A DNA stretch of 64,000 nucleotides, taken from assembly GCF_028748185.1 (NCBI RefSeq), contig NZ_CP118164.1:5791814-5855813 (forward strand), in the 5' to 3' direction. Positions 14,228 to 51,154 of the stretch are shown here, piece by piece. Below the pieces are notes generated by a model that ran no database searches, was not told where the DNA came from, and saw only the letters and a program-made list of their open reading frames with translations. The DNA comes from Bremerella sp. P1 (lineage in GTDB: Bacteria > Planctomycetota > Planctomycetia > Pirellulales > Pirellulaceae). Position numbers and translations under genes: made by a program. Each line of letters starts with the position of its first letter. The stretch's first letter is position 1.

Positions 14228-15622
14228 TCAGTAGATGTAAAGCAATTCACAGCCGAAGAAGTGCATTGTTTCTGCTTCGCCACTTTCTTGGATAAATGCC
14301 CCTGGTGGCATCAGCGTGTATGAGGCGGTTCCTGCTAGGTTATCGGTGAATACGACTTCGAGAATTCCTTCATACTGAGTCGTCACGTAGCGACTGCTAC
14401 TAGCGGAACTGGGACGAAGGATTGAACCGCCAGCACCATACAAGGCATCATCGCGACTATATCGCCAGAGGAAGTCGACGTCGAAGGTCAAGTTGACCTG
14501 AGGCGAGAGATCTAGGCTTAGAGAGGGATGAATGTCTATCAAATTGTAGGGAGCGATGACTCCTGATTCGCCAAAATACTTGAGCTTAGGATACAGCGGG
14601 TTGAAGGTTCCAAGTTTGGCGTCGTTGGGATCGGTGTCGCCACTAATGAAATCAACCTTGAGGTCGAATCCAGGCTCGAAGACAAGATCATGCATCTGAT
14701 AGCCTATCTGCATCGCGAGTGACCAAGCCTCAATTCGTTTCTCGCCAAACTCACCAAGTTGGATGAACAACTCGGGATTCCAACTCCAAGAATTCCATGT
14801 GCCGTATAGGCGAGTACCAAACGTATGGCGAAGTTCTCTGCCGGTTCCTTCGTCAAATACGGCTTGCGTGTTCTCCGAACCGATATAGTAAAGATCCACC
14901 CCAACAGACTCGGAGGCATCGTCGGTGCATTCAATTAGGTCGATCGTGGCGTATAAACTCCAAAGCTGTTGTGTGCGGCTCCATTGGTCGTCGAAGGCTC
15001 CAACTTCCGCTCGGACGGGACGTCCGTAGAAGATGAAGGTCTGCGATTGGTCGCGAATTTGTCGGAGTTCGATGGTATCGAATGAACGAAGTACATTCGT
15101 GCCGTAGCGGGTAGAGATGAGACGTCCCGAACCGAATTCGGTGAGTTGCCGCCCGAGACGGAAACGCCATACATCTTCGCTGTCCAGTTCGATATCAACG
15201 AATGCCTGCAAGATGTCGGAGATGTCTTCATCAATAGGCGAAGGCATCGGCTCGACATCGACCGCAGGTGCGACAATGAGTTCGCCGAAGAAGCGAGTGT
15301 TCTGCATGGGATGCCAGTCGAGTGTTGGCAATGCCCTCAGCCAGAGATAGCCATCTCGATCTCCCGCATTCATCCCCCAGTTTGCGTTTTCAAGCTTTTC
15401 ATACCTCGCACGTAGTTCCGTGCCCGTTGTAACGTAACCACTGGCAGTTGAAATGTACTTGAGTGGAACCCACCATTGGCCTTGAGGCAGGTCCGTTGAT
15501 TCCAGGAAGGACCAGTCTTCGTTGTATCGCAATGGACCGCTAGCTTTCTCAGTCTGCTGAGCCGATGATGTCGTCCATAAGACAAGAAGTAAACCAATGC
15601 TAAGAATTCCATTTCGATACAT
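14228..15622 (-). CDS. Alginate-export-type outer-membrane porin
   Basis: The product has 464 residues: a signal peptide (to about SSAQQ at 22) and then alternating beta-strand sequence rich in aromatic residues. Features of the alginate_exp porin family are visible: VTTGTELRARYEKLEN near 60, FRLGRQLTEFGSGRLISTR in the middle, and SGDTDPNDAKLGTFNPLYPK followed by the SGVIAPYNLIDIHPSL segment. The protein ends on an aromatic residue (ELLYIY), as usual for outer-membrane barrels. It probably forms an outer-membrane channel for an anionic or sugar-like solute; despite the family name, no alginate gene is nearby. It converges with the WD40 gene and has no same-strand partner close by. Confidence 0.8.
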   Translation of the reverse strand: MYRNGILSIGLLLVLWTTSSAQQTEKASGPLRYNEDWSFLESTDLPQGQWWVPLKYISTASGYVTTGTELRARYEKLENANWGMNAGDRDGYLWLRALPTLDWHPMQNTRFFGELIVAPAVDVEPMPSPIDEDISDILQAFVDIELDSEDVWRFRLGRQLTEFGSGRLISTRYGTNVLRSFDTIELRQIRDQSQTFIFYGRPVRAEVGAFDDQWSRTQQLWSLYATIDLIECTDDASESVGVDLYYIGSENTQAVFDEGTGRELRHTFGTRLYGTWNSWSWNPELFIQLGEFGEKRIEAWSLAMQIGYQMHDLVFEPGFDLKVDFISGDTDPNDAKLGTFNPLYPKLKYFGESGVIAPYNLIDIHPSLSLDLSPQVNLTFDVDFLWRYSRDDALYGAGGSILRPSSASSSRYVTTQYEGILEVVFTDNLAGTASYTLMPPGAFIQESGEAETMHFFGCELLYIY

Positions 15623-15751
15623 CGGAAGCTTAAGGTTACGCCACGAAATCAGTAAGTGGAGGACTGATATCAGATTCGTGAGCTATGAGTATTGAACGAT
15701 CTTGCTCTAGATGCCATTTGATCTTGGTGAGTCGAGAGCATCTGAATAATG

Positions 15752-16639
15752 TCATCCTAGCTCAGATCTCCATCGTCCCGGAGAAAGACCGACGATCTTT
15801 TTAAAGTGGCGACTGAAGTGAGCCTGGTCTGCAAATCCACAAGCCGAAGCGACACTAGCCAGCGACAAGTCAGGCACACTTCGCATAAGCTCTTGCGAGC
15901 GTTCGATTCGGATCTTTGTTAGATAGAAGTAGGGAGGGTGACCGGTCGCGTGTTTGAAAAGCCTTGAAAAATAGAAGGAACTCACGCCTGCCGCGTTGGC
16001 CAATTCATCAAGCGAGATACTTTGGTTAAATCGATCGTTCAGAATCTCAGTGACTCGTCGCAGTGCGGCGACATCCAACGCCGGGATATGATTGTCGGCT
16101 TGCTTCAGAATTGAAGCATGGTCTAACAGGCGACTTACGATCGCTCTGACTGCGACGTCGACATAGAGTCGCCCATTGGGACTGCCGCTATTCGCCTCAA
16201 TCCAAACCGATTCGATAAGACCATGCAGGTAAGTATCGTGACGATCACCACGAAAGATCCCGTTCAGATCATCTTTTAGTTGAACTGAAGTGATATCAGC
16301 TGCTTTGCAAAGTTCTTCGGCTGGAAGACTCAAGCTAAGCAGTTCAAAGACGCCATCTCCCTCGATCTCAGACTGTAGGTTTGCGGGAGTAACGATAAAT
16401 CGCCCAGGTGCTCCTTTGACCGAAAACTTGCCTTGTCCCAGGTCGATATCCGCCCTGGACCAACCACGACTTATCATCTGGATATGAAAGTCAGGCGTGG
16501 GGGGGCTGCCAAATGCCTCTCGAATTCGTGCGCGACATATAGAGACTGGTGTCCCCGAGACTTCGCGGACTTCGGAAGCCATGCAACGATTCTGCCATTC
16601 GCGACTTCGTGCCCACGTGGCGAAGCTATCGTACACCAT
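15752..16639 (-). CDS. AraC-family transcriptional regulator
   Basis: The product has 295 residues. The N-terminal two thirds is a cupin-like sensor region (about 20-175). The C-terminal domain (about 195-295) is a canonical AraC double helix-turn-helix: SLDELANAAGVSSFYFSRLF as the first and VASACGFADQAHFSRHFKK as the second, followed by VGLSPGRWR. It is divergent from the gene block beginning at 17559 (isochorismatase-type hydrolase, amidohydrolase, nitroreductase) and may control it, though the 919-base gap makes this uncertain. The inducer is not predictable from sequence. Confidence 0.87.
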   Translation of the reverse strand: MVYDSFATWARSREWQNRCMASEVREVSGTPVSICRARIREAFGSPPTPDFHIQMISRGWSRADIDLGQGKFSVKGAPGRFIVTPANLQSEIEGDGVFELLSLSLPAEELCKAADITSVQLKDDLNGIFRGDRHDTYLHGLIESVWIEANSGSPNGRLYVDVAVRAIVSRLLDHASILKQADNHIPALDVAALRRVTEILNDRFNQSISLDELANAAGVSSFYFSRLFKHATGHPPYFYLTKIRIERSQELMRSVPDLSLASVASACGFADQAHFSRHFKKIVGLSPGRWRSELG

Positions 16640-28714: not shown

Positions 28715-29312
28715 GTCCCCATCCTTCCACATAGTGTCTTGTATTGGCCTCGCGGTCTTAGCTGCAGCATGAAGCTGTTGAAATCAAATCGAACGAGTTT
28801 TGGTAGAAGATGCAAGCGATTTCACACGCTCCTGCGAGCGAACACCGTAAATTAGCCAGTGTGACAACAGTAGATGTGAGAAAAGTGGCCTTACGTTCAG
28901 GTCCTTACTTTGCGAAACAGGAACTCGAACTAACCTGCCCTCACGAATGAAACCAGTCTTTAAGAGCTACTCTTCAAGAATTCTTTCCCCTGGAAGAAGT
29001 GTATCACGAGGGCTTTCCCAAGCGGTGTCCGACACTGTCTGAAGTTAAGATGATGCAACCATTGGTTGTTGGTGGGAGCTGAATTCCTTCAGACTTGAAC
29101 CAATGAATCCGATTCCGAAGCGTGAGTAATTTGAGAAAGCGCATAACACTCAAATGTGCGCGAACTCAACTACACACTTCTACACACTTTGCACCCCGAA
29201 TACGCGCATTTCCCGAGAATTATTGCGATTGAATAAGACGATTTGCAACGTTTTGCGAATCATCGTAAACTACTCCTGTTATACGGTTTCAGGCTAAAAG
29301 AGCAGGGCTTTC
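28715..29312. other. Non-coding gap with IS scar
   Basis: About 600 bases without a credible gene. It holds the IS end remnant at 28931 and, near 29170-29190, a short direct repeat of a CTACACAC-like unit. The rest shows no recognisable structure. Confidence 0.4.
28931..29002 (+). mobile_element. Solo end of the IS3-family element (remnant)
   Basis: From about 28933 the sequence ACCTGCCC, a T, then CACGAATGAAACCAGTCTTT repeats the outer left end of the intact IS at 51126-52407, followed by a diverged match (TTCAAGAATTCTTTCCCCTGG) to its terminal hairpin. No transposase sequence remains. It marks an old insertion of the same IS family about 22 kb away from the intact copy. Confidence 0.7.
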
Positions 29313-29366
<54 letters not shown>

Positions 29367-29367
29367 G

Positions 29368-29405
29368 ACCCTGGTTTAGCAAATAAAGCTCAACCAGGGT
29401 TTTTT
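29368..29405 (+). terminator. Rho-independent terminator
   Basis: A perfect 9-bp stem (ACCCTGGTT at 29368-29376 with AACCAGGGT at 29392-29400) is followed by a T-run. It lies 4 bases after the tRNA remnant and is repeated almost exactly at 50534-50572. Confidence 0.85.
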
Positions 29406-29635
29406 CGTGCCTCCTCTGAGGTTGGGATAGAATCGGTTCGTTTTATCCCACTATCTCGCAACGAGTTGCGTGGCCGCGTTTTCTCTTCTTGGTTGTCTCT
29501 GTCTAAGTGAGACATAACCCGGCCGATCTCTTTGACCAATCTCAACGGCTCAATTTGGCGTTTGTCTCACCAATTTGGCAGAGACACTACCGCCGGGTTA
29601 ATAGGGTGTTGGGCTCGGTAGAGTGAGGCATACGC
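29406..29635 (+). repeat. Structured repeat, copy A (upstream of ECF sigma gene)
   Basis: About 230 bases shared with 50573-50800. Conserved hairpins in order: GGGATA...TATCCC (29425-29449), CGCAAC-GA-GTTGCG (29457-29470), GTCTC...GAGAC (29495-29513), and GTCTC-N12-GAGAC (29564-29585). An outer pair, TAACCCGGC near 29515 and GCCGGGTTA near 29592, would enclose the last two domains. It lies between a terminator and an ECF sigma gene. I do not recognise it as a known RNA family. Confidence 0.7.
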
Positions 29636-29835
29636 GAACTTGGGCTTAAGCAAATTTGAGTAGTCTGACTTCTAAGCAGCACTCGCAAACGCGGGACGGT
29701 TCGTCCTTGGGCTATCGACATCAATCGTCCAAGAATAGTACCGACGAAGAAAACTGGCAAATTCCCGTGAATACCTTGAAAATGTCCGTAATCTTCAAGC
29801 TTCGGCCACGCTAACTCATTTAGAGGGACAACAAG

Positions 29836-30390
29836 TTGCCGGATGACATTGCTGAACAATTCGAGAAGTACCGCGAGTATCTCGGGGTCCTGGGGCGTAT
29901 GCAACTTGACGATCAGTTGGCTGGGAAAGTGGACCTGTCAGGTGTAGTTCAATTGACACTATTCGAAGCAAGCCGCAGTGGATGGGAAGAGCGTACCGAA
30001 GATGATCGGCTTCCGTGGATACGACGAATATTTGCCCACAACCTACTGGACGAGATTCGCAAGTTCCGTTCCCAGACGCGTGATGTCACTCGAGAGCACT
30101 CGATTGAGCAATCGGCCTCCCGGCTGAATCAATGGCTCGCGAGCGAACAGTCCACTCCGAGCAGGAAAGCCATGATGGCGGAAGAAGAGTTGCGGCTGGC
30201 AATCGCGCTTGCATGCCTGCCTGATGCACAGCGAGTGGCAATCGAACTACATCATCTCAAGGGCTTGCCGCTTGATCATATCAGTCAACGAATGAACAAG
30301 ACCAAAGGCGCCGTTGCCGCATTGATCTTCAGAGGCACATCGAACCTGCGTGAACTTTTGACTAACCAGCAGGACAATCCTGATGTCTGA
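29836..30390 (+). CDS. ECF-type RNA polymerase sigma factor
   Basis: The product has 184 residues. It starts at TTG 29836, supported by GAGGGA at 29823-29828. Region 2 is seen in VQLTLFEASRSGW...RLPWIRRIFAHNLLDEIRKF, and region 4 in LRLAIALACLPDAQRVAIEL followed by GLPLDHISQRMNKTKGAVAALIFRG. This is the planctomycete short-ECF type that normally precedes a serine/threonine-kinase gene with an overlapping start; such a start (ATG 30383) is present but the kinase gene is destroyed. The structured repeat lies in its leader. Target promoters are unknown. Confidence 0.87.
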   Translation: MPDDIAEQFEKYREYLGVLGRMQLDDQLAGKVDLSGVVQLTLFEASRSGWEERTEDDRLPWIRRIFAHNLLDEIRKFRSQTRDVTREHSIEQSASRLNQWLASEQSTPSRKAMMAEEELRLAIALACLPDAQRVAIELHHLKGLPLDHISQRMNKTKGAVAALIFRGTSNLRELLTNQQDNPDV

Positions 30391-30605: not shown

Positions 30606-31233
30606 CTCGGCCTATGAACAGACGATTGATTCACGTAGCGGAAAGGAAGCGTTTGCTGTTGGTGATTCGATCGTGCTCGTATTCGAGCAAGATGACCAAT
30701 ACGACGTGCTGCCGTTCTTCTGGGTGCCAGAGGAAGGTGCCAAGCGGCGCGAGAAACGCGATCATGCTCCGTACATACCCTGGATCCAGCAAAGGTACAT
30801 CGAAGCCTCACCCGGTTAAGTCGTCGACTACGAACGTATTCGTGCACGGATCAACGAACTAGGAAAACGGTTCGAGATCGAGCAGGTCGCGATCGACCGT
30901 TGGAATGCGACACAATTGGCTACGCAGCTCGATGATGATGGATTCGAGATCGTGTCCTTCGGCCAAGGCTACGCAAGTATATCGGCGCCGACGAAGAAGC
31001 TGGAAGAGTTGGTGTTGTCTCGGAAGCTACGCCATTCCGGTCATCCTGTGTTGCGTTGGATGGCAGGCAACGTGGCGATCGAGCAGGACGCAGCCGATAA
31101 CTGGAAGCCGTCGAAGAAGAAGAGTCAGGAGCGGATTGATGGAATTGTCGCTCTGGTGATGGCGGCGGATCTGGCGACTCGGCACGTGGAGTATGAAAGT
31201 CCCTATAGCAAGCGGGGGATGTTGTTTCTTTAA
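30606..31233 (+). pseudogene. Phage terminase large-subunit C-terminal fragment
   Basis: The frame running 30606-31233 encodes the nuclease half of a phage large terminase: YDVLPFFWVPEEGAKRREKR, IEQVAIDRWNATQLATQLDD, FGQGYASISAPTKKLEELV, HPVLRWMAGNVAIEQDAADN and ERIDGIVALVMA. A TAA at 30817-30819 interrupts it where relatives read a residue between PG and VVDY, and the ATPase half is missing. It is a prophage relic; no other phage genes are visible nearby. Confidence 0.82.
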
Positions 31234-31549: not shown

Positions 31550-33004
31550 ATGCTGGCACTTGATTCCAAAACCTATTGTTGCCTATCTCTTTTGCTGCTG
31601 GTTGGCGGCTGCGCTACGACTGCCCCGTCGCCCAGTGCGAAGCCGGCGTTGGCTGATCCGAGTCTGCATGCGGCAGCTCGTTTGCCTGACGCTGAGGTTG
31701 ACGTCGCGGTTGTGCCCTCTGTGGTCGACCTTCCGGCGGAACCGATTGACGAGCCGGTCGTTCAATTGACTGCCTACCAAGGGGAAGATTCATCAGAAAC
31801 GCTCGCCGGACTCGAGCAGATGGCGCGGAACCGAAATCCACGGCTGACGCGGCTCTATCAGGAGTATCAAGGTTCGTTGGCCAAGTCGCAGTATGCCGAC
31901 AAGTTGCCCGATCCTCGTTTCGGAGCCAACGTGTTTGGCAACGCCATTGAGACGGCCGCCGGATCACAGCGGGCCAACATGACCTTCAGCCAGGCAATTC
32001 CCTGGCTTTCACGCCTACGAGCCGATGAGCAGCGGGCAATATTCGAGGCGTATGCCATCGCTGCAGAGCTTGAAGCGGAAACGCTGCGGGTCGAAGCGGC
32101 CGTTCGGACGAATTGGTACCGCTTGTATGTGCTCGATCAGCAGATCGAGATTGCTCAAGCGAATCAGCAGCTGCTTCAATCGCTGATCGATGTTGCCAAT
32201 GCCAGGATCGCGACAGGGGCCGCTTCGCAGGGGGATGTCCTGCTGGGGACGCTGGAGCTTTCGCAACTAGAAGAACGGCTGCTCACCTACCGGCGTCAAC
32301 GCCTCGGCGTGCAGGCCGAGCTCAACCGGCTGGTGGCTCGCGATACGGAAACGCCGATCGGCTCGCCGAAAACAATTCAGCCGAGTTTGCCAACAGTAAG
32401 TGCTGATGAACTAGCGCACATTGCGATTCAGAATCAGCCAGAGATTGAGGCCGCGCAGATGAAAGCCCATGCCACTCGCTGGGGCGTGGAGGTTGTCCGG
32501 CTGATGCGCCGGCCTGAGTTCGTCCTTTCGGCCAGTTACTACCCGACCGACGACAATCGTCCACCGAGCACCGTTGTGGATGTCGGGCAAGACCCATGGG
32601 CGTTGGGTGCTCAGGTCAGTATTCCGATCTGGCATAACAAATACGATGCCATGGAGATCGAAGCGAAGTGGAAGCATCAGGCCGCGCATAGTTCTGTCGA
32701 AGAACTCGCGGATCGGTACGAAGCGATGATCGTCGACCTGTTGGCCGAGGCGCGGCGTGCCCAGGAAACGGCATCGCTTTACGAGTCGACGATCCTTCCC
32801 CAGGCCCGTCAGACGCTGGATGCCGACCAGCAGGCCTATGCCAACGGGGCGGTCGAGTTCGATCGGGTGATTCGCGACTATCGCAGTCTGCTGACCCTGG
32901 AAGTGGGCTACCACCAGGCCATGGGCGATCTGGCGACCGCAGTTGCCAAACTGTCCCAGACGAGCGGAACGGATGTCACATTGCTGGTTCCACCACAGCC
33001 TTGA
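31550..33004 (+). CDS. TolC-family outer-membrane efflux lipoprotein (CusC-like)
   Basis: The product has 484 residues. A lipobox LVGGC places lipidation at C21, and GGTGAG precedes the start. After a low-complexity linker come the two long helical-hairpin repeats of outer-membrane efflux proteins, with coiled-coil stretches (LRVEAAVRTNWYRLYVLDQQ, GDVLLGTLELSQLEERLL, EARRAQETASLYESTILPQA). It forms the outer-membrane tunnel for the CusB/CusA pair encoded downstream. Base composition from here to about 41 kb looks distinctly GC-richer than the first 30 kb, which fits acquisition as a block. Confidence 0.88.
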   Translation: MLALDSKTYCCLSLLLLVGGCATTAPSPSAKPALADPSLHAAARLPDAEVDVAVVPSVVDLPAEPIDEPVVQLTAYQGEDSSETLAGLEQMARNRNPRLTRLYQEYQGSLAKSQYADKLPDPRFGANVFGNAIETAAGSQRANMTFSQAIPWLSRLRADEQRAIFEAYAIAAELEAETLRVEAAVRTNWYRLYVLDQQIEIAQANQQLLQSLIDVANARIATGAASQGDVLLGTLELSQLEERLLTYRRQRLGVQAELNRLVARDTETPIGSPKTIQPSLPTVSADELAHIAIQNQPEIEAAQMKAHATRWGVEVVRLMRRPEFVLSASYYPTDDNRPPSTVVDVGQDPWALGAQVSIPIWHNKYDAMEIEAKWKHQAAHSSVEELADRYEAMIVDLLAEARRAQETASLYESTILPQARQTLDADQQAYANGAVEFDRVIRDYRSLLTLEVGYHQAMGDLATAVAKLSQTSGTDVTLLVPPQP

Positions 33005-33117
33005 TTCGTGCCAAAGTCTTTACACTCAGCGGGTTTGCTCTCATGAACCGACGTTGACGTTCGATGGATCTCGGCCTAGACTTCCTTGTACTAGTTGAAT
33101 TAACCCTGGAAGGTCTC

Positions 33118-33573
33118 GTGTCCGATATTCTCCGCAAAACGACCGTTCTCACGGCAATTGTCGCGTTGCTGCTGCCGTCGTTTTGTCTGGGCTCAGTCGG
33201 CAATTGTGCTTGTTCCGATAGTGGCAATGCGGCCTCAGCTTGCCAGTGCTGCTGCATGGCACAAGCGTCCTCGCTCACCGCAGGCTGCCCCCACTGCTGC
33301 ACGAAGTCGAAGCCGACAACGGACGACCGTGGTGATTCAGTCGCTGCCGATTCCATTTGTCACTGTGAAGCAGCGGCATTACCTCCGTCCGTTTCTCTTT
33401 TCACTGGGGACGGTTCGGTAGCCGATGGGTTGATTGCTCTGGCGCTTGAAGCCGACTTGGCTCCGTATGTTACGGTTTGCAGCCGTGACCGACAGCCGCT
33501 CGAGGATGGGAACTCTCTTCCCTCACCCGAGCCAAGATTCCGACAGATCATGCTTTGCGTTTGGTTGACCTAA
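33118..33573 (+). CDS. Small cysteine-rich exported protein of the efflux island
   Basis: The product has 151 residues from GTG 33118, chosen because GGAAGG sits about 5 bases upstream. A signal peptide (TTVLTAIVALLLPSFCLGSV) is followed by a dense cysteine cluster: CACSD, CQCCCM, CPHCC and, further on, CHCEA. The C-terminal 70 residues carry few recognisable features. I do not know a named family. Its place between the TolC-like gene and the metal-binding lipoprotein suggests a periplasmic copper or silver binding protein; that is inference from cysteine content and neighbours. Confidence 0.65.
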   Translation: MSDILRKTTVLTAIVALLLPSFCLGSVGNCACSDSGNAASACQCCCMAQASSLTAGCPHCCTKSKPTTDDRGDSVAADSICHCEAAALPPSVSLFTGDGSVADGLIALALEADLAPYVTVCSRDRQPLEDGNSLPSPEPRFRQIMLCVWLT

Positions 33574-33688
33574 CGACGTTGCGATTTCTCTAAGTCGCTC
33601 CGCGTTTACCGGTACGTTCTGATGCTTTCGTCGAACCGGTGAATTGTGTTCTTACGTCATTCATTCTTCCAATCTGAAAAGGTTTGTC

Positions 33689-33994
33689 ATGCGCTATTTG
33701 TTTGCCTCCATTGCTTTGTTGGGACTTGTCGTTGGTTGCACTCAGGGACCTTCTTCCTCAACTCCGGAAACCACTGCCGTGGCCACGGTGAATGATCACT
33801 GCCCGATCATGGGTGGCGACATTACGCCGGAAGGCGGCACGGTTGAGTGGAACGGGAAAACAATTGGGTTCTGCTGCGATGGCTGCGATGAGAAATGGGA
33901 GGCCCTTTCCGACGAGGAAAAGGTAGAGAAGCTGGCTGCTGCTGAGCATGCCGACGAAGGCATGCACGATCACGGCGACCACGACCACTCGTAG
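33689..33994 (+). CDS. Metal-binding lipoprotein with CPIMGG / CCDGC motifs
   Basis: The product has 101 residues from ATG 33689 (AAAAGG upstream). Lipobox VVGC gives a lipidated cysteine near 17. The mature part is YHS-like: DHCPIMGGDITPEGG, then GFCCDGCDEKWEAL, ending in a histidine-rich tail (GMHDHGDHDHS). Such small proteins are frequent beside CusBA-type pumps and are expected to bind copper or a similar soft metal in the periplasm. Confidence 0.8.
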   Translation: MRYLFASIALLGLVVGCTQGPSSSTPETTAVATVNDHCPIMGGDITPEGGTVEWNGKTIGFCCDGCDEKWEALSDEEKVEKLAAAEHADEGMHDHGDHDHS

Positions 33995-34116
33995 TTGGCC
34001 AGGTTGCTGATACGTGAGCGGCTGGTCGATACCATTCCCGGCGCGGTCCAAACGCCAGGCAGGCGTTTCGGTCCAGCCGCTCTTTACCTTTCGATTTTCG
34101 TGACAGGAACGTTGCC

Positions 34117-36168
34117 ATGTCGACGTCATCTCACTCTTCCGGTCAGCAAGCGACGCCCCAGCCACCCAGGCACACGGCAAGTTGGTGGATCGCACGTCTT
34201 GCTCCCATTGGACTATTCCTTCTAGCTGGCATCCTGCTGATTGTGCTGCTGGGCGTTGCTCAGCGTGTTGGCTGGATCGGAACCGATGGCGGCCCGCAGG
34301 CGACGTCAGGCGGCGACTCGCAGCAGATCTACACGTGTCCAATGCATCCGCAGATACGTCAGCCTGGACCGGGGCGTTGTCCGATCTGTGGGATGGCGTT
34401 GGTACCGGCTGCTTCAGGCAGCGCCGATCTGGATGAGTTCGCCGTGACGATCGAGCCTGCCCAGCGTCGCTTGGCCCAGATCGAAACGGCCCCGGTCACG
34501 TCGAAACCAGTTTCGACCACGATCGAAACGATCGGCGCGATCGAGATCGACGAGAGCCGTCAGGCAACGATCTCCGCCTATATCGATGGACGCGTGGAAC
34601 GTTTGTTTGCCGACTACACCGGGGTGGTTGTCGCGAAGGGGGATCACCTGGCGGTTGTCTACAGCCCACAGTTGTACGCGGCCCAGGCCGAGTACCTGGA
34701 AGCCCGCAACACGGTCCAGCGGATGAGTAACACGTCGCTGGCCGCCATTCGCGAGGCGCAGCAAAAGCTGATGGAGAACGCCCGGCAGAAGCTCATTGAA
34801 TTGGGAATGACCGAAGAGCAAGTTCAGCAACTGGAAACGAGCGGCAAGGCCGAGTCTCGGCTCACCATCTACGCCCCGATGGGCGGAACGGTGATCGAGA
34901 AGCTGGCCGAAGAAGGGAAGTACATCAAAGCGGGCGAGCCGATTTATCGCATTGCCAACCTGTCGACGGTGTGGCTCATGCTGGAACTCTATCCCGAAGA
35001 TGCCTCGCAGATTCGCTTCGGTCAGCAGGTAAAAGCCGAGCTGACATCGCTTCCCGGCGAGACGCTTACCGGGCGGGTGGCCTTCATCGATCCGGAAGTG
35101 AACGTGAAGAACCGTACGGTCGGCGTGCGTGTCGAGTTCAAGAATGATGCGGGACGTTTACGCCCAGGCGACTACGCCGAGGCACAAATTGAAATACCGA
35201 TCGGGCCTCAAGGAACGGTTTACGACGAGCAACTGGCCGGCAAGTGGATCAGCCCGATGCATCCCCAGGTCATTCGCGACGAGCCGGGCCCGTGCCCTAT
35301 CTGCGGCATGGACCTGGTGCCGACATCGCGATACGGCTACGCCGACGAACCGATCGACCGGAAGGCCTCGACGGTCATTCCCCGGTCGGCGCTTCTGATG
35401 GCCGGGAAGAATAGCGTGGTGTATGTCGAGACCGACCCGGGCCGCTTCGAGATCCGCACCATAAAGCTGGGCCCGATCTTGAAGGATGAGGCCGTCGTGC
35501 TGGAAGGGGTCAAGCCAGGCGAAATGGTCGCGACCTCTGGTAACTTCCTGATCGATTCGCAAATGCAGCTGGCCGGCAAACCGAGCCTGATCGATCCGTC
35601 CCGTTACGTCATGAAGCAGAACCGCAATACACCGATGGAGTTCAACTCGATCGACATCACCCAGCTCGAGGGTCTCGGTGGCCAGGATCTGGAAGCGTTG
35701 TACCAGGTCTACTTCAAGATTCAAAGCCAGCTTGCGGCGGACAAGAAGCCCAAGGCAGAAGACGCGCAGCAGCTGTTTCAGTTGGCCACGAATCTCTCGC
35801 AGCACCCTCAGCTTAGCGAGTCGCTCCGCGAGCAACTGGCGACGATCGCCAAGAATGCCGAGCACCTGCACCATATGTCGCTTGAAGAGGCCCGCAAGAA
35901 CTTCAAGCCGATCAGTCATGCCGTGTTGAACCTGGCGACGACCATTCGCGGGCAAGGAGCATCGCAGCCGTTCCACCAGTTCTTCTGCCCAATGGTCAAA
36001 GGAGGTGAAGGAGACTGGCTTCAGGCCAACGATCGATTGTTGAACCCCTACTATGGCAGCCAGATGCTCCGCTGTGGCGAGCATGTCAGGACGATCCAGC
36101 CCGATGCGGTGGCGGATCATGTTCATCCCCCTGAAGCAAAGCCTGACATGACAGAAGGAGACCAATAG
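34117..36168 (+). CDS. cusB: CusB-type periplasmic adaptor with two metal-binding modules
   Basis: The product has 683 residues with one N-terminal membrane helix (about 28-51). A heavy-metal-binding module (YTCPMHPQIRQPGPGRCPIC) lies at about 72-97 and a second, lacking the first cysteine (WISPMHPQVIRDEPGPCPIC), at about 377-403, inserted inside the adaptor. The lipoyl/barrel core (TISAYIDGRVERLFADYTGV, LTIYAPMGGTVIEKLAEEGK) is normal. A C-terminal DUF3347-like domain ends in FCPMVKGGEGDWLQ and NPYYGSQMLRCGEH. It joins the inner-membrane CusA to the outer-membrane tunnel and probably loads metal. Confidence 0.9.
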   Translation: MSTSSHSSGQQATPQPPRHTASWWIARLAPIGLFLLAGILLIVLLGVAQRVGWIGTDGGPQATSGGDSQQIYTCPMHPQIRQPGPGRCPICGMALVPAASGSADLDEFAVTIEPAQRRLAQIETAPVTSKPVSTTIETIGAIEIDESRQATISAYIDGRVERLFADYTGVVVAKGDHLAVVYSPQLYAAQAEYLEARNTVQRMSNTSLAAIREAQQKLMENARQKLIELGMTEEQVQQLETSGKAESRLTIYAPMGGTVIEKLAEEGKYIKAGEPIYRIANLSTVWLMLELYPEDASQIRFGQQVKAELTSLPGETLTGRVAFIDPEVNVKNRTVGVRVEFKNDAGRLRPGDYAEAQIEIPIGPQGTVYDEQLAGKWISPMHPQVIRDEPGPCPICGMDLVPTSRYGYADEPIDRKASTVIPRSALLMAGKNSVVYVETDPGRFEIRTIKLGPILKDEAVVLEGVKPGEMVATSGNFLIDSQMQLAGKPSLIDPSRYVMKQNRNTPMEFNSIDITQLEGLGGQDLEALYQVYFKIQSQLAADKKPKAEDAQQLFQLATNLSQHPQLSESLREQLATIAKNAEHLHHMSLEEARKNFKPISHAVLNLATTIRGQGASQPFHQFFCPMVKGGEGDWLQANDRLLNPYYGSQMLRCGEHVRTIQPDAVADHVHPPEAKPDMTEGDQ

Positions 36169-36169
36169 C

Positions 36170-39100
36170 ATGATGCGTGCAATCATCTCGTTCTGTGTTC
36201 GTGAACCCCTGGTGATGTTGGTCGTGACGACGGTCGTGATCGTTTCCGGATGGTTCGCCATGCGGAACGTCCCCATCGATGCGATACCTAACATCGGCGA
36301 GAATCAGGTGATTGTCTTCACGGCCTGGCCGGGGCGATCTCCCAAGGATGTCGAAGACCAGATCACCTACCCCCTTTCGGTCGCCATGTTGGCGGTGCCG
36401 AATGCAGAGTCGGTGCGTGGGAAAAGCCTGTTCGGGTATAGCTTCGTGCAGGTCACGTTTCACGACAGTACCGACTTTTACTGGGCGCGGTCGCGGGTGA
36501 TGGAGCAACTGGGAACGGCCACGGCCATGTTGCCGGACGGGGTGGTTCCGACGCTCGGTCCCGACGCCACCGGGCTCGGCCAGGTTCTGTACTACACGCT
36601 CGATCCGCCTGAAGGGATGAATTTGGCCCAGCTGCGCTCGCTGCAGGATTTCGTAGTGAAGTACGAACTTCAATCGGTCCCCGGAGTGAGCGAAGTCGCC
36701 AGCGTGGGCGGGTATGTGCGGCAGTATCAGATTGAAATCGATCCCGATCGCCTGCGTTTCCACAACGTGCCGCTCGACCAACTGGTCGATGCAGTCCGCA
36801 AGTCGAACATTGACGTCGGAGCCAAGACGATCGAATCAGGCGGCATGGAGTTCATCATCCGCGGACGCGGGTTCATCGGCGCTAATCAGGACAGCGACGA
36901 GGCGATTGCCGATATTGAAAAGACGGTAGTCCGTTCCCGCGACGGCATACCATTGCGCATTCGCGACCTGGGGCATGTGCAACTGGGGCCGGAGTTCCGG
37001 CGCGGTGCGATCGACCTCAACGGCACCGAGGCGGTCGGGGGCGTCGTGGTGATGCGCTACGGCGAAAACCCACGGGCGGTGATCGACCGCGTGAAGCAGA
37101 AGATCGAGCAAATCGAACCTAGCCTGCATGGCGTGAAGGTCAACATTGTCTACGACCGTACTGGCCTGATCGATGAAACGATCGCCACGTTGACCTCGGC
37201 GCTGACCCAGGAGGTTCTCATTACGGCGGTGGTGATCCTGTTGTTCCTGCTGCATATCCGGGCGAGCATCGTTGTCGCGGTTACCTTGCCCATTGCCGTG
37301 CTTCTTGCGTTCGTGGCGATGTACGTGTTTGGCATCGATGCCAACATTATGTCGCTGGCCGGCATTGCGATCGCGATCGGTACGATGGTCGACATGGGGA
37401 TCATCGTTTCCGAGACCATCTACGACCAATTGGCCGACTGGGAACGGGAAGGCTGCCCTGGCGGACGCGCTCGACGGTTGGAGGTAATACAAGAGGCGGC
37501 CAGTGAAGTCGCCCCGGCGGTGGTTACCGCCGTGATGACGACGGTGGTCAGTTTTCTGCCGGTGTTCATGTTAACGGGACGCGACTACAAGCTATTCGCA
37601 CCGCTGGCCTGGACAAAAACGTTTTCACTGCTGGCGGCATTGATCGTCGCCGTGACACTCGTGCCGGTGCTGAGTCGTTTCCTTCTTCAATCTTCCGAGC
37701 AAAAAAAGCGAACCCGTCTCTTTGCCGCTGGCTGCTTTGCCAGTACCGGCTTCATGCTGGGATGGACGCTCGGAAATGTGATTCAGGCAGCCACCGGCAT
37801 GCCCTTCACGGTCGTGGTTCTGGCGATGACAGGCATCTTTGCTGCGGCCGGCTATTGGATGCTTGGTGAACGTCTGCGGCCGGTCGACGAGAATCCTGTC
37901 AGCCGGTTCATACTCTGGGGGTACGAACCATTATTGCGGCTTTTCTTGGCCCGAAAGGGTGCCTTCCTGGTGGTTCCAAGCGTGGTGATCGCACTTGGGC
38001 TGGGGGCTTGGATCGGCCTGCCAACCATTCTGAAACCGGTGGAAGAAGGATCGAAGCTGCTGGGGGCGAACCTTGATGAAGTGCCAGGCTATGTCGACCT
38101 AAAGCATACGTTCACCGGTCTGGAATCGGATGACTGGATCGCGCTCGACGAAGGGAGTTGGTTCTACATGCCGACGCTCTACCCGGCCGCCAGTTTCTCG
38201 CAAGCCATGGAGGTGTTGCAAACGCAGGACGCATTGATCCGGGAGATCCCGGAAGTCGAAAACGTATTGGGCAAGATCGGCCGCGTCGAATCGGCTCTCG
38301 ATCCGGCCCCAGCTGCGATGATCGAAACGTACGTCATGCTCAAGCCGGTAGACCAATGGCGGGAAGGTATCACGACTCAAGATATCTGGGAACAGATCAA
38401 CGCCTTGGCGACGTTGCCCGGCGTGACGCCTGCGTCCCCACTTCAGCCGATTGAAGGTCGCGTGGTGATGCTGCAAAGCGGTATTAAAGCGTCGATGGCA
38501 ATCCGGATTTATGGTGATAGCCTGGATGGCCTGGCCGATGCTTCGATGAAAGTTGCCGAGCATCTCAAGACGCTTCCTCAGGTCAATGGAGCGACGGTGA
38601 ACCCCGACATCGTGCTGGGCAAGCCCTACGTCGAGTTCGACGTCAACCGCGATGCGGCGGCGCGCTATGGAATGTCGACGGCGATGGTCAACCAGGTGAT
38701 CGAAACGGCCCTGGGCGGTTCGAACGTAACGAAGACGGTCGAAGGACGCGAGCGTTACCCCGTGCGGGTTCGGTACGAGCGTCATCTGCGCGAGCAACTC
38801 TATGAGCTAACGAACCTGCCGGTCGTCACGCATTCCGGCGAGGTGGTTCCCCTTTCCAATCTGGCGACGATGAACACGACCTGGGGGCCAGGCGTGATCA
38901 ACAGCGAAGACGCCCGCTTAGTAGCACACGTGTCCTTTCAGCCGTCCGGCTCGATGGGCGACCTGGAAACGGCTGCGTCAGTGAAGCAAAGTTTGCTTTC
39001 TGCACAGCAAGATAAAAGTCTTGAGTTGCCCAAGGGGTATTCTCTTGAACCAGTCGGGTCGTTTCAAAACCAGATCGAAGCGAACCAGCGACTGCTGTGG

Positions 39101-39634
39101 GTGATTCCACTGGTGATGTTGATCAACCTATTCATTATTTATTTGCAGTTTCGTCACATACCAATCTCGGTGGCGGTCTTCGCTGGCATACCCGTGGCAT
39201 TTGCTGGGGGGATGTTGTGCCTGGCGATCAACTCGGTCGAGATCAACACGGCCGTGTGGGTGGGGTTCATTGCCTTGTTTGGTATTGCCGTCGACGATGG
39301 CGTGGTGATGGCAACGTACTTAGATCAGGTCTTCACGCGGAAACGCTTAAGCACGATCGAAGACATCCGCAATGCGACCGTCGAGGCGGGCATGAAGCGG
39401 ATTCGTCCCTGCTTGATGACCACCTTCACGACGATCATCGCCCTGGTACCGGTCATCATATCAACGGGGCGCGGCAGTGATGTGGCCAAGGCAATGGCCT
39501 GGCCGGTTGTCGGCGGCATGACGGTCGAGCTGCTGACACTGTTCGTCGTGCCGGTTGTCTTCGCCGCGTTCAAGGAATTCAAGATGAACCTGGGCATGCA
39601 CGATCGGCACTGGGTAGGAACCGAAGACTCGTAA
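36170..39634 (+). CDS. cusA: CusA-type heavy-metal RND efflux pump
   Basis: The product has 1154 residues and starts two bases after cusB, with AGAAGGAG as ribosome site; a second ATG follows immediately. Features of the HME-RND family: IPNIGENQVIVFTAWPGRSP at the N-terminus, transmembrane segments around 335-520 and 960-1130 (IAIAIGTMVDMGIIVSETIY, IALFGIAVDDGVVMATYLDQ), and WFYMPTLYP carrying a conserved methionine of the metal relay. An extra hydrophobic stretch near 505-560 makes it somewhat longer than E. coli CusA. The predicted substrate is Cu(I)/Ag(I), driven by the proton gradient. Confidence 0.93.
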   Translation: MMRAIISFCVREPLVMLVVTTVVIVSGWFAMRNVPIDAIPNIGENQVIVFTAWPGRSPKDVEDQITYPLSVAMLAVPNAESVRGKSLFGYSFVQVTFHDSTDFYWARSRVMEQLGTATAMLPDGVVPTLGPDATGLGQVLYYTLDPPEGMNLAQLRSLQDFVVKYELQSVPGVSEVASVGGYVRQYQIEIDPDRLRFHNVPLDQLVDAVRKSNIDVGAKTIESGGMEFIIRGRGFIGANQDSDEAIADIEKTVVRSRDGIPLRIRDLGHVQLGPEFRRGAIDLNGTEAVGGVVVMRYGENPRAVIDRVKQKIEQIEPSLHGVKVNIVYDRTGLIDETIATLTSALTQEVLITAVVILLFLLHIRASIVVAVTLPIAVLLAFVAMYVFGIDANIMSLAGIAIAIGTMVDMGIIVSETIYDQLADWEREGCPGGRARRLEVIQEAASEVAPAVVTAVMTTVVSFLPVFMLTGRDYKLFAPLAWTKTFSLLAALIVAVTLVPVLSRFLLQSSEQKKRTRLFAAGCFASTGFMLGWTLGNVIQAATGMPFTVVVLAMTGIFAAAGYWMLGERLRPVDENPVSRFILWGYEPLLRLFLARKGAFLVVPSVVIALGLGAWIGLPTILKPVEEGSKLLGANLDEVPGYVDLKHTFTGLESDDWIALDEGSWFYMPTLYPAASFSQAMEVLQTQDALIREIPEVENVLGKIGRVESALDPAPAAMIETYVMLKPVDQWREGITTQDIWEQINALATLPGVTPASPLQPIEGRVVMLQSGIKASMAIRIYGDSLDGLADASMKVAEHLKTLPQVNGATVNPDIVLGKPYVEFDVNRDAAARYGMSTAMVNQVIETALGGSNVTKTVEGRERYPVRVRYERHLREQLYELTNLPVVTHSGEVVPLSNLATMNTTWGPGVINSEDARLVAHVSFQPSGSMGDLETAASVKQSLLSAQQDKSLELPKGYSLEPVGSFQNQIEANQRLLWVIPLVMLINLFIIYLQFRHIPISVAVFAGIPVAFAGGMLCLAINSVEINTAVWVGFIALFGIAVDDGVVMATYLDQVFTRKRLSTIEDIRNATVEAGMKRIRPCLMTTFTTIIALVPVIISTGRGSDVAKAMAWPVVGGMTVELLTLFVVPVVFAAFKEFKMNLGMHDRHWVGTEDS

Positions 39635-41466: not shown

Positions 41467-42005
41467 ATCGACCGGACTTGGCGTGAAAACTTAATCCGTG
41501 GTGTTTGTTAGTTGATTCAACTTTTCCCCAGGAGGATCTGTCTTGAGTAGTCTTGCGATAGTGTGTTGAAAGTTAGTGAGGCATCTATCGAGCGTGATTG
41601 CACGCACAGGCCGCCTAAGGCGATAGCTATTCAGAAATAGATCGGTTTTTCTCGCAAATCCGGCTCTTGCCAAATGTCAATGTTCTCGGTTCGCGAAAGA
41701 CTCAGTTCGGGGTGCAAAGCCAACCCTCCGCAATTCAGTAAAGGGTTCCGTTCGCTCAGCGGTAGGCCGAAAAGGACTCGAAATCAGCAAAGCATTGCTG
41801 CATCAAGCTTTCCAAGTTTTCAGTAAACAGAGAACTCTCACTAAGAGGGTTCTGCAAGGGGAGCAGACACAAACCGGCTTATCTCAATGAGAGCGATCTA
41901 AGCCTGAATTCTGCCGTTGTCCACCAAGTCGGCTGAGACGCTACCGGTGGGTTCGGCAGGTTCTAAGCTACGACATGATTCTACATATCCCGGGGGAAAT
42001 AAGGT
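41467..42005. other. Non-coding gap downstream of the giant gene
   Basis: About 540 bases between DUF3147 and the 3' end of the giant gene. It contains the diverged third copy of the structured repeat (41829-41955). Around 41665-41690 there is a weak tRNA T-arm-like string (GCAAATCCGGCTCTTGCCA), too poor to call. No gene is evident. Confidence 0.45.
41829..41955 (+). repeat. Structured repeat, diverged copy C
   Basis: A hairpin AGAACTCTC-ACTAA-GAGGGTTCT (41831-41853) replaces the GTCTC hairpin of the other copies. It is followed by 41867-41955, which aligns base by base with 29514-29602: ACACAAACCGGC against ACATAACCCGGC at the left, and CACCAAGTCGGCTGAGACGC against CACCAATTTGGCAGAGACAC at the right, then CTACCGGTGGGTT. 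The 5' half of copies A and B (terminator and first hairpins) is missing. Confidence 0.5.
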
Positions 42006-45000
42006 TTAATCAAAAAACCAGTCGATGGATAACGCGTCAAATTGGTGGTCGTCCTCAATTTCAGCATTCACTGGCAAATCGTCATCTGAGAACACGGCGT
42101 CGATGATCCGAGGGTCAAGATTAGTGGTGGTCAAAGGAACTCTGTCGAGTTGTTCAGACGAATCGGACACGAGTTCTATTTCTTCGATATTCGGTTGTGA
42201 ATCATAATCGTAGACATCAGCGTTGAAGTACTCGGACACATGAGCGTATGAGAGAACGCTGGTTGCTGAATCTTGTTCCGGTTCTCCCTCAAAGGTAAGA
42301 CGTGGGGCGCTAATCCGTGATTCGGCTAATACCCTGGCTTGGAGGATATCACCACTCGAGGAGTCTTTACGTCTGCCGTAGTTCCTAACAAACAAAGCGA
42401 AATCGGAAAGATCTATCCTGCCACTTTGGTCGTAGTCGAATCGGTATGCGTCGGGTTCATCAACGCCCGGTTGTTTGCCGTAGTTTCTGATCAGTCCAGC
42501 GAAGTCGCCGAGCCCAATACGGCCATCGTCATTTGTGTCATAAATAACCGGCAAAAATGATCCTCGATGGTCCGATACTATTAGCAGATGTTGTTCATTG
42601 TTTACTCTCTTGGTCTCTTTAAGCAGGATGGCATCTGCGCTACCAGGCGACGGGTACTCGCCGATGATTTCCATGGGGACGCCAACGCCGTTTTCACGAT
42701 CTACAGGAACTAGCAGGTTGGCAATCAAAACGCGTTCGCCCAGCTGAAACCCAGTAAAATCGACACCAGTCAAGCTCAGGCGGAAGATGGTCTCGCTGGA
42801 TTGAGCTTCCGTCAAAACGGAACTACCACTACCTAAGCTTGACAGAAATATCGGCTCTTCGAACCAACCGCTCTTCGTAGTAAGCGTGAACTCAAGATCA
42901 ATGATTTGCTCGAATAGATCTTCATTGATCGTGATCCACAACTGAGCAGGAACATCTTGCCATTCATTGAAAATGGCCTGCTCATCGTCCGCCGTTTGCT
43001 GGCTTGTTCCCACAGGTAGATTGGTTTCCGAAACTAATCGCAATTCAGAATAGGAAGCTCCAATGACAAATATTCGCTGTTCAGTTGAACTTGATCCACC
43101 ATCTTCATCCGAGACTGTGAGTCGGACTGCGTATTGATCGGCCGCAGGAGGCGTGAAGCGAAACTCGGTCATTTCAACTCCGCTGCCTTCTGCGACTACG
43201 TCCTGATTGCCTAGTGCAAAGACTTGATACGAAAAGGTCAGCTCGTCATTCACACCCGCCAGATCTGTCGCTGACGTCATGACAACAATTTCGTTTCCGA
43301 CGACTCTCACATCGCTTATGGATTCGATTGTCGGGGCCGGCGATGCGTTGGCGACGATCATCTGAAAGCTGACCAGAGATGTCTGTGTGCCGTCGACAAG
43401 TAAAGAAATTTGAACCACATCCGAGTCCACCGGACCATCGGAGGGAGCAAATGACCAACTCCACGTACCATCGCCGTTGTCAGTGACCTCTCCGATGGAA
43501 GCCTGCAATTCAGCGTTTGCGGAGGGATTATACCTACCGGAGTTTACCACCGTTTCCGATTCGTAGGACCAAACGGTCGAGGCGTCAACTGTCATTTCGT
43601 CAACGGCAATGACTCGGGATAGGTGAAAGCTTTGAAGTCCGTCCGTGATCTGTAAGTCGACCGTTACGAAGCCAGCCTCGTTGATTGTCAGATCGAACGA
43701 TGATTCTGTCGAATCAATGAGCGTCGCATCACCTTGCGTGACCTTCCATTGAAAGCTTAAGTTTCCGTCGTCGAAGGTGTCAGGTATATCGATTCCGAAA
43801 TATTCTTCGGTGCCGGCCAAGATACCCTTAGGAAGAATAAGGTCGGCGATAATCGATCCGACAGTCTGAATATTCTGGCCTAGATGGAAAGTAGCATTGT
43901 CAATTTGAAGCGTTCTCATGCCGGCCGCATCTTCGGTCCAGACAAAGTCCGTGGAGTCACTTGCGAAGAAAGCCACCTGATCCTGCGGATCTCCCAGGAT
44001 CGTTATTGATGAGTCTGCTGGCAGATAGCCTCCGAAAAGATCCTCGCCGTTGTTGACCAGGATTCCCTCGCTCGTCACCGACACGTACACGATATCTTCC
44101 AGGGAATTGCTCGTCACATCAATCTCTGGGAGGTCCCGGTCCTCGATGGTCCCCAATGCCAAGTCTCGGTACAGGACGGCGTTTGTTACGGAATCTAAAA
44201 TGAGCGATATCGATTCCGTTCCTTCAGGTATCGTATCGCTGAAAACATTAACAGTGATCTGCTTCGATTCCAAGTCGCCCGGATCCCATTGGAGTTGTCC
44301 AACATTTTCCTCATAGTCGAGCCCAGCCAGGGCGGTAAGACCATCGGTACGATAGTTGACAGTGATGGGTAAATTGCTCGACGCGATTGTCAGAGGCGTG
44401 ACGTCAAAGACAAGTTGAGTGATCCCATCACCTTCTTCTACAAAGGCATCGGAAACCATCACATAGACCGGCAGGATGTTTCCAATCGTCGCGTTACTAA
44501 CGACTGATTCGATCTCGGTGCGAGTTGTTCTGGCACTAAAGTCTTCGGCAGTGATCAACCCTGACGCAAAGTCCGCCAAGTCGTCAGAAACTTTTGTTTG
44601 CAAGACCTTTTGAATGGTAACGATGCCTTCGACATAACTGACACCCACGGGCACTGCGATCTCGCGAGCAAGGCCATTGAGATCGGCAATAACTGCAGTG
44701 GAAGCTTCAATGACTTCCGTGCTCAGATTCACGCCAGAGCGAACGGAGACGCCCTGGATCACGCTTCGAATCACACTTGTTTTCGTTAGATCAAGATTCG
44801 AACTTTCCGAAGCGATTTTCTCCGCAATGTCCGAGAAAGCCAAATCGGCAAATAGCGAGAGCGAAAGAGTCGACTCAGCGCCGTGAAACAGGCTGGCCAG
44901 TTCGATTACGGTGTTGTAGACCTCAGTATCCAGCAGGAACATTCTTCCTGCCGCCACGTTCCCATTGATTGCCTGAGAGAGAAAGTCGAAATCGACACTG

Positions 45001-49997: not shown

Positions 49998-50533
49998 TGG
50001 CTGGCCATCCAATGCGCATCGGGAACGCGGCATACAAAACAAAGGTGTGGAATCAAATGGCACCAGTGAGGCCTCTCTTCTCACGCGTGCAGTGTTAGGG
50101 AATATTGTAATAATTGTGCGGGTTTTGACAGGAACGAAACCGGAACAGATAAGAAAAACTTGATCTTTTGTCCAAAGAGGTGGTTAGCACGTAACTTCAG
50201 TCAGAAAAGCAATTTAGCGGTCGCACAAGTATTTGTAAGAAATCCACATTGCCACTTAGGTTGCGAATAGTGGGCCGTGGAATATTTGGAAGCAGTCCAC
50301 TGCACATTTGAGGATTCACGTGTGGATCTCGTCATTGAGCGAGCAACGCAAGGAATACGAAGCAACGCTCGGTAACGTGTGTCGCAAACGAAGTTGCTTA
50401 TAGAAATCGCGCGTTCATGGTTCGCAAAAAGGTCGCTTCACGAGGTGGCTTGATATCGTCTCCATTGGTTGCCGAGCATATTCTGCGGTAGGTCTCTCTT
50501 TTATTCCGAAGACAGTCAGCCTCGCTCCACTAA
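49998..50533. other. Non-coding region upstream of the giant gene
   Basis: About 536 bases, presumably holding the promoter of the giant gene (reverse strand). I cannot place a promoter with confidence and see no gene. The last bases before the terminator at 50534 (CAGCCTCGCTCCAC) resemble a worn tRNA 3' end by comparison with the equivalent position of copy A. Confidence 0.4.
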
Positions 50534-50572
50534 AACCCTGGTTTAGCGAATAGTGCTCAACCAGGGTTTTTT
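50534..50572 (+). terminator. Rho-independent terminator, second copy
   Basis: AACCCTGGTT pairs with AACCAGGGTT across a 15-base loop and is followed by T-run and CGTGCCTCC, almost identical to 29368-29405. No gene ends directly upstream on this strand, so it appears to travel with the repeat rather than serve a local gene. Confidence 0.8.
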
Positions 50573-50800
50573 CGTGCCTCCTTTGAGGCTGGGATAGAAG
50601 TGCGTTGTTTTATCCCATTAACACGCAACGAGTTGCGATGGCGTGTCTTCTTTACGCGAGTCTCTCTGTCAAAGAGAGACATAACCCGGGCCATCTAAGC
50701 TAGTCCTCTCAGTCGCTCAATTTGGCGTTTGTCTCACCAATTTGGCATAGACACTACCTCTGGGTTAATAGAGTGTTGGGTTCGGAGTAGCGAGGCACAT
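50573..50800 (+). repeat. Structured repeat, copy B (upstream of truncated ECF sigma gene)
   Basis: It aligns over its length with 29406-29635. GGGATA...TATCCC and CGCAACGAGTTGCG are retained. The GTCTC hairpin is here GTCTCTCT-GTCAA-AGAGAGAC: its sequence differs from copy A but pairing is kept and extended. CTCAATTTGGCGTTTGTCTC and CACCAATTTGGCA are identical between copies. A further 8-bp hairpin lies just downstream (GCCTGGCA at 50815-50822 with TGCCAGGC at 50835-50842). Confidence 0.7.
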
Positions 50801-50932
50801 CCTAGTCGAAAATAGCCTGGCATTAGGGCTCTCGTGCCAGGCGTGCTCAAATAACTTTGAAATTCTTGCCACACTAAGCACCGCTTGTGGAAAGTAACAA
50901 TACCGACACTGCTTTACAGGGTTTGTATTGAT

Positions 50933-51125
50933 ATGCTTTCGGAAGACCAACAAGTTCGATTTACTGCTTTTTGGACCGACGCTCAGCCGAGTGTGAGTCA
51001 GTATGTGGCATCACTGATTCGGGACCAGTGGGCGGTTCGAGATGTCGTTCAGAATACTTCCATGATTCTGCTGCGGAAGTATCCAGAGTACGACGATACT
51101 CAGCCCTTTCTTCCGTGGGCATTGG
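50933..51125 (+). pseudogene. ECF sigma factor cut by the IS element
   Basis: ATG 50933 opens a frame encoding SEDQQVRFTAFWTDAQPSVS, then VRDVVQNTSMILLRKYPEYD and PFLPWAL, which is region 2 of a planctomycete ECF sigma factor. Recognisable sigma sequence stops at the first base of the IS (51126); the remaining few codons read into the IS end. Region 4 is lost and is not found on the other side of the IS, where a DUF1501 gene fragment begins instead. Confidence 0.8.
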
Positions 51126-51154
51126 TGACCTGCCCCCACGAATGAAACCAGTCT

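Follow-up and report, generated by a model that had tools for sequence, protein, structure and literature searches.

A repeat beside tRNA-Met in Pirellulaceae is probably the shared end of serially inserted mobile islands

What is the repeat that occurs twice in this stretch of the Bremerella sp. P1 genome, each time pointing towards an ECF sigma gene? The window (the whole stretch of 64,000 nucleotides that was analysed) holds two copies, A and B, which align almost free of gaps in two blocks: 29349–29529 with 50516–50696 (80% identity), and 29540–29630 with 50707–50797 (87%). Both blocks keep the same order and a spacing of 21,167, and the similarity is far above chance (E = 4e-69 in a genome search with copy A). 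A preliminary description had reported shared motifs in the same order, and this is borne out, with each motif located where it was claimed: terminator arms (A 29368–29380/29388–29405; B 50535–50547/50555–50572), a GGGATA..TATCCC hairpin (29424–29449; 50591–50616), a CGCAACGAGTTGCG hairpin (29457–29470; 50624–50637) and a GTCTC..GAGAC hairpin (29495–29513; 50660–50680). We use LE for the ~270-nt unit common downstream of both junction types described below, and RE1 and RE2 for the two junction (far-end) types found upstream of it. Alignment and genome search place LE at 29360–29635 (copy A, probably the tRNA-proximal end of the next element) and 50527–50800 (copy B), both on the plus strand. 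A weak, decayed LE-like remnant lies at 41871–41953, also on the plus strand (R1 match, E = 6e-4).

The terminator proves to be the 3′ flank of tRNA-Met itself. Upstream of copy A, alignment to the intact gene reveals a 43-nt fragment of tRNA-Met that starts in the anticodon loop (CTCATAACC...) and runs to the 3′ end (29321–29363, plus strand); a tRNA search of the window called none. It is followed by a terminator-like hairpin and T run (29368–29405, plus strand; pattern match, 0 expected by chance, with no call from a consensus terminator scanner), and an identical kind of flank is found after intact tRNA genes.

Searching the own genome (G000) with copy A gives eight matches to the one unit: A at 5821162, B at 5842340, c2 at 5743441, c4 at 1742955 on the other strand, and the partial copies c5 (5779226), c6 (5864446), c7 (5905584) and c8 (5791282). 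Six of these form a row of uniform orientation that spans 162 kb and starts at an intact tRNA-Met(CAT) gene (5743381–5743455). Copy c2 starts within that gene, and c5, A, B, c6 and c7 come after it at spacings of 21–42 kb. Upstream of c6 is a slightly altered copy of the 43-nt tRNA fragment, while B, c5 and c7 are preceded by a second common sequence, in which the part common with the tRNA junction begins at CCACT. Hence two right ends can be defined on the plus strand. RE1 (29130–29320) belongs to the element preceding copy A and is 84–86% identical to the DNA preceding the tRNA fragment at c6 and to that preceding copy G008b; RE2 (50492–50526) belongs to the element between A and B and is common to c5, c7, G001, G006b, G007b, c13, c14 and G008c. 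No tRNA, terminator or far end was recognised beside c4 (G000:C1:1742955–1743179), which by eye is flanked by a KDPG-aldolase-like gene and by a cluster of genes on the other strand. Four positions (G000 5791282, G001:C68 104474 and 95020, G008 988241) have no more of LE than its final ~40 nt; the upstream DNA is alike in three of these four and contains a gene of ~800 aa of AhpC/TPR type. A 726-bp tandem unit was also seen at G000 5774237–5776902 (L011), inside the gene for a giant 3675-aa protein.

The cargo between A and B begins with a gene for a 184-aa ECF-type sigma factor (29836–30390, plus strand; PF08281, PF04545). This is followed on the same strand by a C-terminal remnant of a phage-type terminase large subunit (30667–31230; 92.6% over residues 344–531 of the TerL of the tRNA-proximal element) and by heavy-metal efflux genes for an outer-membrane efflux protein, a CusB-like and an AcrB/CusA-like protein (31550–39634; PF02321, PF16576/PF19335, PF00873). 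A giant Calx-beta protein gene occupies 42006–50084 on the minus strand (PF03160 in the 1664 aa scanned, 42009–47000). Beyond copy B lie the N-terminal part of an ECF sigma gene, interrupted by an insertion (50885–51145, plus strand; PF04542, 24.5 bits against a cut-off of 24), and an IS3-type transposase gene (51155–52018, minus strand; PF13683, PF00665, PF13276).

Within the genus the arrangement recurs. LE matches were found in 12 of 147 genomes searched, among them eight of the nine of the genus with the own genome counted; the ninth genome, which gave no match, is 68% complete. The four matches outside the genus include G039 (32 nt, tRNA end) and G107 (32 nt). For comparison we used 17 same-genus copies, excluding as strongly truncated c5–c8, the G001 copy at 59 kb with its two tail fragments, the G004 copy at 16.7 kb and the G008 tail. 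Upstream of the 17 we find an intact tRNA-Met (eight copies), the tRNA 3′ half (A and G008b), RE2 (B, G006b, G007b, c13, c14 and G008c) or, for c4, neither. All eight matching same-genus genomes have LE directly 3′ of an intact tRNA-Met (the LE of G003 lacks the final ~40 nt), with additional copies located after a tRNA 3′ half or RE2. The gene upstream of this tRNA is common to seven of the eight, the fetched G007 stretch being too short to judge, and the cargo downstream differs between the eight and is mosaic. As in additive islands, an intact tRNA forms one border, tRNA 3′-end repeats occur at the outer RE1 junctions, and one location holds different cassettes among relatives. At RE2 junctions the identity with the tRNA side is confined to CCAC/CAAC plus the downstream flank.

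Relatives of LE extend beyond the genus. A covariance model built from the 17 copies and run over 241 family genomes recovered all 17, together with four weak matches in three other genera, and a DNA search with one of the latter matched 45 of the 241 genomes, many matches being short. Among 24 other-genus relatives (weak matches L127 and L131–L136 excluded), 14 have an intact tRNA-Met upstream, two its 3′ half and eight no tRNA. The G026 copy, counted apart from these, has no tRNA-Met upstream; at this locus (L026, G026:C4 about 1423250–1423503) an RE1-like stretch comes ~150 nt or less after a truncated LE start, an arrangement that looks like what a deletion would leave, or like an element of very small size. 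A pattern scan of public contigs gave no match with the same-genus motif and five records with the other-clade motif (Rhodopirellula, Aporhodopirellula or Rubripirellula).

LE was compared with rpoB-domain DNA in eight genomes, among which its identity is uncoupled from that of the host. It is 0.99–1.00 identical in G019, G236 and G276, which represent three genera with rpoB identities of 0.81–0.82, and 0.98 identical in G239 and G268, from two genera (rpoB 0.81). The same-genus pair G236/G239 has an LE identity of 0.63 and an rpoB identity of 0.85. Since LE is nearly identical between genera whose rpoB is only 81–82% identical, it moves horizontally. In the own genus the similarity of tRNA-adjacent LE copies partly tracks the flanking gene (Spearman rho 0.69 over 21 dependent pairs from seven genomes), with exceptions such as G005. 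Three stretches from other genera (G019 13.6–37.2 kb and G249 18.5–40 kb of the fetched sequence, and G234 from 16991) all begin at GACCAGACGTGTCAC, and ~20 kb of them, in pieces, is 89–95% identical between two genera.

Which enzymes might join these ends is suggested by the gene content. No Phage_integrase was found in the own-genome array (13 matches lie elsewhere in the genome), and no site-specific recombinase was recognised in the window's two elements. Six elements have a serine recombinase gene, located internally or at the far end. In an RE2-ended element of G000, G006, G007 and G008 the gene encodes a large protein (519 aa, 89–91% identical) and lies 5–10 kb from LE, inside the element. 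A relative in G239 (56%) begins ~1.2 kb, and a broken one in G284 (69% over the first 293 residues) ~0.5 kb, before an RE2-like junction with the next LE. Recombinase genes usually lie next to the site of attachment. G007 additionally has a gene for a 406-aa tyrosine recombinase ~15.7 kb after c13 and a remnant of one ~8.5 kb after c14; since both are RE2-type copies, RE2 may not be exclusive to serine recombinases. Genes adjoining LE in G268 and in G239, considered as recombinase candidates, were set aside, being DoxX-like and transporter-like by eye. IntI-like C-terminal remnants occur downstream of LE in G006 (L046 about 15549–15782) and G007 (C15 89786–91094), with weak ones in G004 and G005; relatives of this stretch are found in 240 of the 241 family genomes, so that a link to integrons is not specific and was rejected.

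The serine recombinase of G000, G007 and G008 sits in a block together with DUF2924, ParB-methylase and TerL genes, to which G000 and G008 add a primase-like gene. By eye, none of the ORFs after TerL was recognised as a capsid gene. In G000 this conserved block covers ~15 kb (L010:1211–16592, G000 5750652–5766033); it has equivalents in G007 and G008, with sharp boundaries and flanks that differ. It is satellite-like and includes an HNH gene in G000 and G007. Later elements in G000 and in G006 contain terminase remnants, the mark of decayed members, and the remnant at 30667–31230 suggests that the element between A and B descends from an element of the serine recombinase/TerL type.

We consider it probable that LE is the shared end of mobile islands inserting serially at tRNA-Met in Pirellulaceae. 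The preliminary description had offered the end of a mobile unit as one of two options, and this option agrees with what is observed directly, namely the tandem array, the tRNA junctions, the transfer between genera and the recombinase genes. Copies A and B, each LE plus the tRNA 3′ flank, would be the tRNA-proximal ends of islands that inserted one after another on the 3′ side of tRNA-Met. Each incoming island would carry its own tRNA 3′ end and LE copy, the older islands and their LE being displaced outwards. At the far end, RE1 has 43 nt of tRNA identity from the anticodon loop, and RE2 only CCAC/CAAC plus the downstream flank, accompanied in six elements by the gene of a large serine recombinase. 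A start of identity within the anticodon loop is a pattern of tyrosine-recombinase islands, and RE1 may have been made by such an enzyme; the serine recombinases are likely candidates for action at these junctions. LE itself may be one arm of an attachment site, with short palindromes to which the recombinase or a helper binds, and in that case RNA structure would not be its point. Circular forms are predicted to join the right end of an element to CCACTT–terminator–LE or to CAACTTCTCTG–terminator–LE. Against this explanation stand the sharing of LE by both far-end types, unexpected for a simple attachment arm of one recombinase, and the internal position of the serine recombinase gene in G000, G006, G007 and G008, 5–10 kb inside. 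It is also at odds with c4, standing without recognised tRNA, terminator or far end, and with the partly host-linked similarity of tRNA-adjacent LE copies in the genus. Further points against it are the broken state of the G284 gene, the lack of a Phage_integrase match in the own-genome array, and the tyrosine recombinase gene and remnant of G007.

It is conceivable, if unlikely, that LE is instead oriT- or pac-like, a site that a helper recognises for transfer or packaging. This would account for a constant LE with variable far ends and for decayed recombinase genes, and the block running from serine recombinase to TerL with no recognised capsid genes in three elements points the same way. 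As a speculative extension, to which we give an equally low probability, LE could be a portable docking end shared by many otherwise unrelated Pirellulaceae islands, a conserved signal for transfer or packaging that bears hairpins and is recognised in trans. Cargo islands without a recombinase and terminase of their own would then still move via the serine recombinase and TerL block of a satellite-like relative, all at one tRNA-Met.

A quite unlikely alternative is that LE encodes a small RNA or a tRNA-linked RNA, a unit downstream of tRNA-Met that the islands restore as they do the tRNA 3′ end. In its favour, the eight tRNA-adjacent copies of the genus are complete or nearly so (G003 without the last ~40 nt), the strongly truncated ones being internal, and single-strand folding is more stable than that of shuffled sequence (z = −2.84 for A, −2.09 for B). 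However, the minus strand of A alone folds about equally well (z = −2.69), and the consensus fold against column shuffles (100 each) gives z-scores in the genus of −4.3 on the plus and −5.9 on the minus strand, falling to −0.8 and −0.95 in other genera. Because both strands fold alike, DNA palindromes are as plausible as RNA. The z-scores from a joint MAFFT alignment of the two clades (−2.98, −2.59) were discounted, since a 17-column gap in it was judged to be misplaced. Furthermore, LE is patchy in the family (45 of 241 genomes matched), no Rfam family reached its gathering score in the window (at a lax threshold six loci gave only tRNA and chance-level matches), and no promoter-like match was found on the plus strand of 29200–29900.

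The case for RNA had rested on a hairpin said to differ between A and B through compensatory change. In the aligned register this does not hold, as no pair is changed on both sides: from A to B, G61–C80 becomes C·C and T66·T75 becomes T–A, and the 8-bp helix of B arises from a shifted register. Among 29 A/B pairs examined, the one two-sided change is at pair 90–159 of a long-range stem (C–G to G–U); of the other differing pairs, 88–161 stays paired as a wobble and 135–148 is lost. Nor did the further copies supply the covariation that the preliminary description proposed to look for, none exceeding shuffles in the 17 of the genus. RNAalifold returned a covariation term of +0.68 (unfavourable) with two-sided changes in 5 of 48 pairs, and the named structure of 29 pairs has two such pairs, compared to 1.5 in shuffles, with a score equal to theirs. 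The GTCTC/GAGAC hairpin speaks for this alternative and for the preliminary description, being kept in other genera by two-sided changes as TCTGA/TCAGA or TCTCA/TGAGA. After identical rows were dropped, 165 of 180 cells are paired in 36 sequences (shuffles 139.3 ± 3.4, 0 of 5000 as high), a count in which relatedness is not controlled; in the same-genus copies alone 77 of 85 are paired (shuffles 77.4). The cross-genus pairing draws on few independent events, and fits an RNA or a protein-bound dyad alike.

Homologous recombination between LE copies on circular molecules, rather than a site-specific reaction, could also leave direct repeats. LE is indeed the stretch common to all junction types and the island content is mosaic, but many unrelated junctions have a sharp start, either at CCAC/CAAC or in the anticodon loop, as fits defined crossover points; this reading is improbable.

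There remains the proposal of a cis-regulatory RNA leader of ECF-kinase loci. The direction in which A and B point was correctly described, as each faces a sigma gene; the sequel is less regular, since the gene at A encodes region 4 domains and is followed next by the terminase remnant, and that at B encodes region 2 and is ended by the IS3-type insertion. At c2 the ECF gene lies on the strand opposite to LE. In six other copies (G001, G003, G004, G006b, G007a and G008b) the first neighbours carry no sigma domain by Pfam and are unrelated (DNA polymerase III alpha, GmrSD, AhpC/TPR, a hydrolase, DUF6666 and a gene of no family). Further copies exist, with a co-oriented sigma gene beside LE in two of nine Pfam-scanned (A and B, neighbours in one array); for the remaining eight, listed as ORFs alone, a small sigma gene is possible. 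LE is not specifically tied to the sigma genes following A and B, and a leader function, favoured by these two copies, contradicted by the other seven scanned and lacking covariation in the 17 copies, can be dismissed as most improbable.

If LE is the end of mobile islands, it provides a marker for tRNA-Met islands across Pirellulaceae, and the islands offer genes for metabolism and metal efflux a possible path from one genus to another. Since the near end stays constant beside two types of far end, one may ask what function conserves a ~270-nt end while the recombination junction varies.

No description of the LE element was recognised among the open-licence papers listed, judged by titles and the starts of abstracts. 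The array appears to be of a known kind, an additive tRNA island as in Alteromonas fGI1, here in Pirellulaceae. Successive cassettes target a conserved tRNA gene in fGI1, its length is variable and exceeds 110 kb in some strains, metal-efflux genes are among its cargo, and the final 52 nt of a tRNA are reported to be repeated at another island of the same Alteromonas genome (PMC4119200). The Pirellulaceae array resembles fGI1 in its conserved tRNA target, successive cassettes, variable length and metal-efflux cargo (PMC4119200). It differs in that two far-end types alternate in one array, and may differ in that its elements share an extra ~270-nt unit beyond the tRNA end. Methylophilaceae have an additive island with tRNA-Lys 3′-end repeats and a separate tRNA-Met tycheposon with large variable cargo (PMC10872708). 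The former is alike in its 3′-end repeats and the latter in its tRNA-Met border and cargo; the tycheposon has the tyrosine recombinase xerD, in contrast to the serine recombinase and the lack of a Phage_integrase match in the own-genome array (PMC10872708). Phage satellites and hitcher elements are similar in having integrase, primase-like and terminase genes and no recognised capsid genes (PMC11389934, PMC10803314). In contrast to satellites, the Pirellulaceae elements, compared here by gene content, measure 20–60 kb and carry large metabolic cargo (PMC11389934, PMC10803314). The less usual feature seems to be the one long near end common to both junction types.
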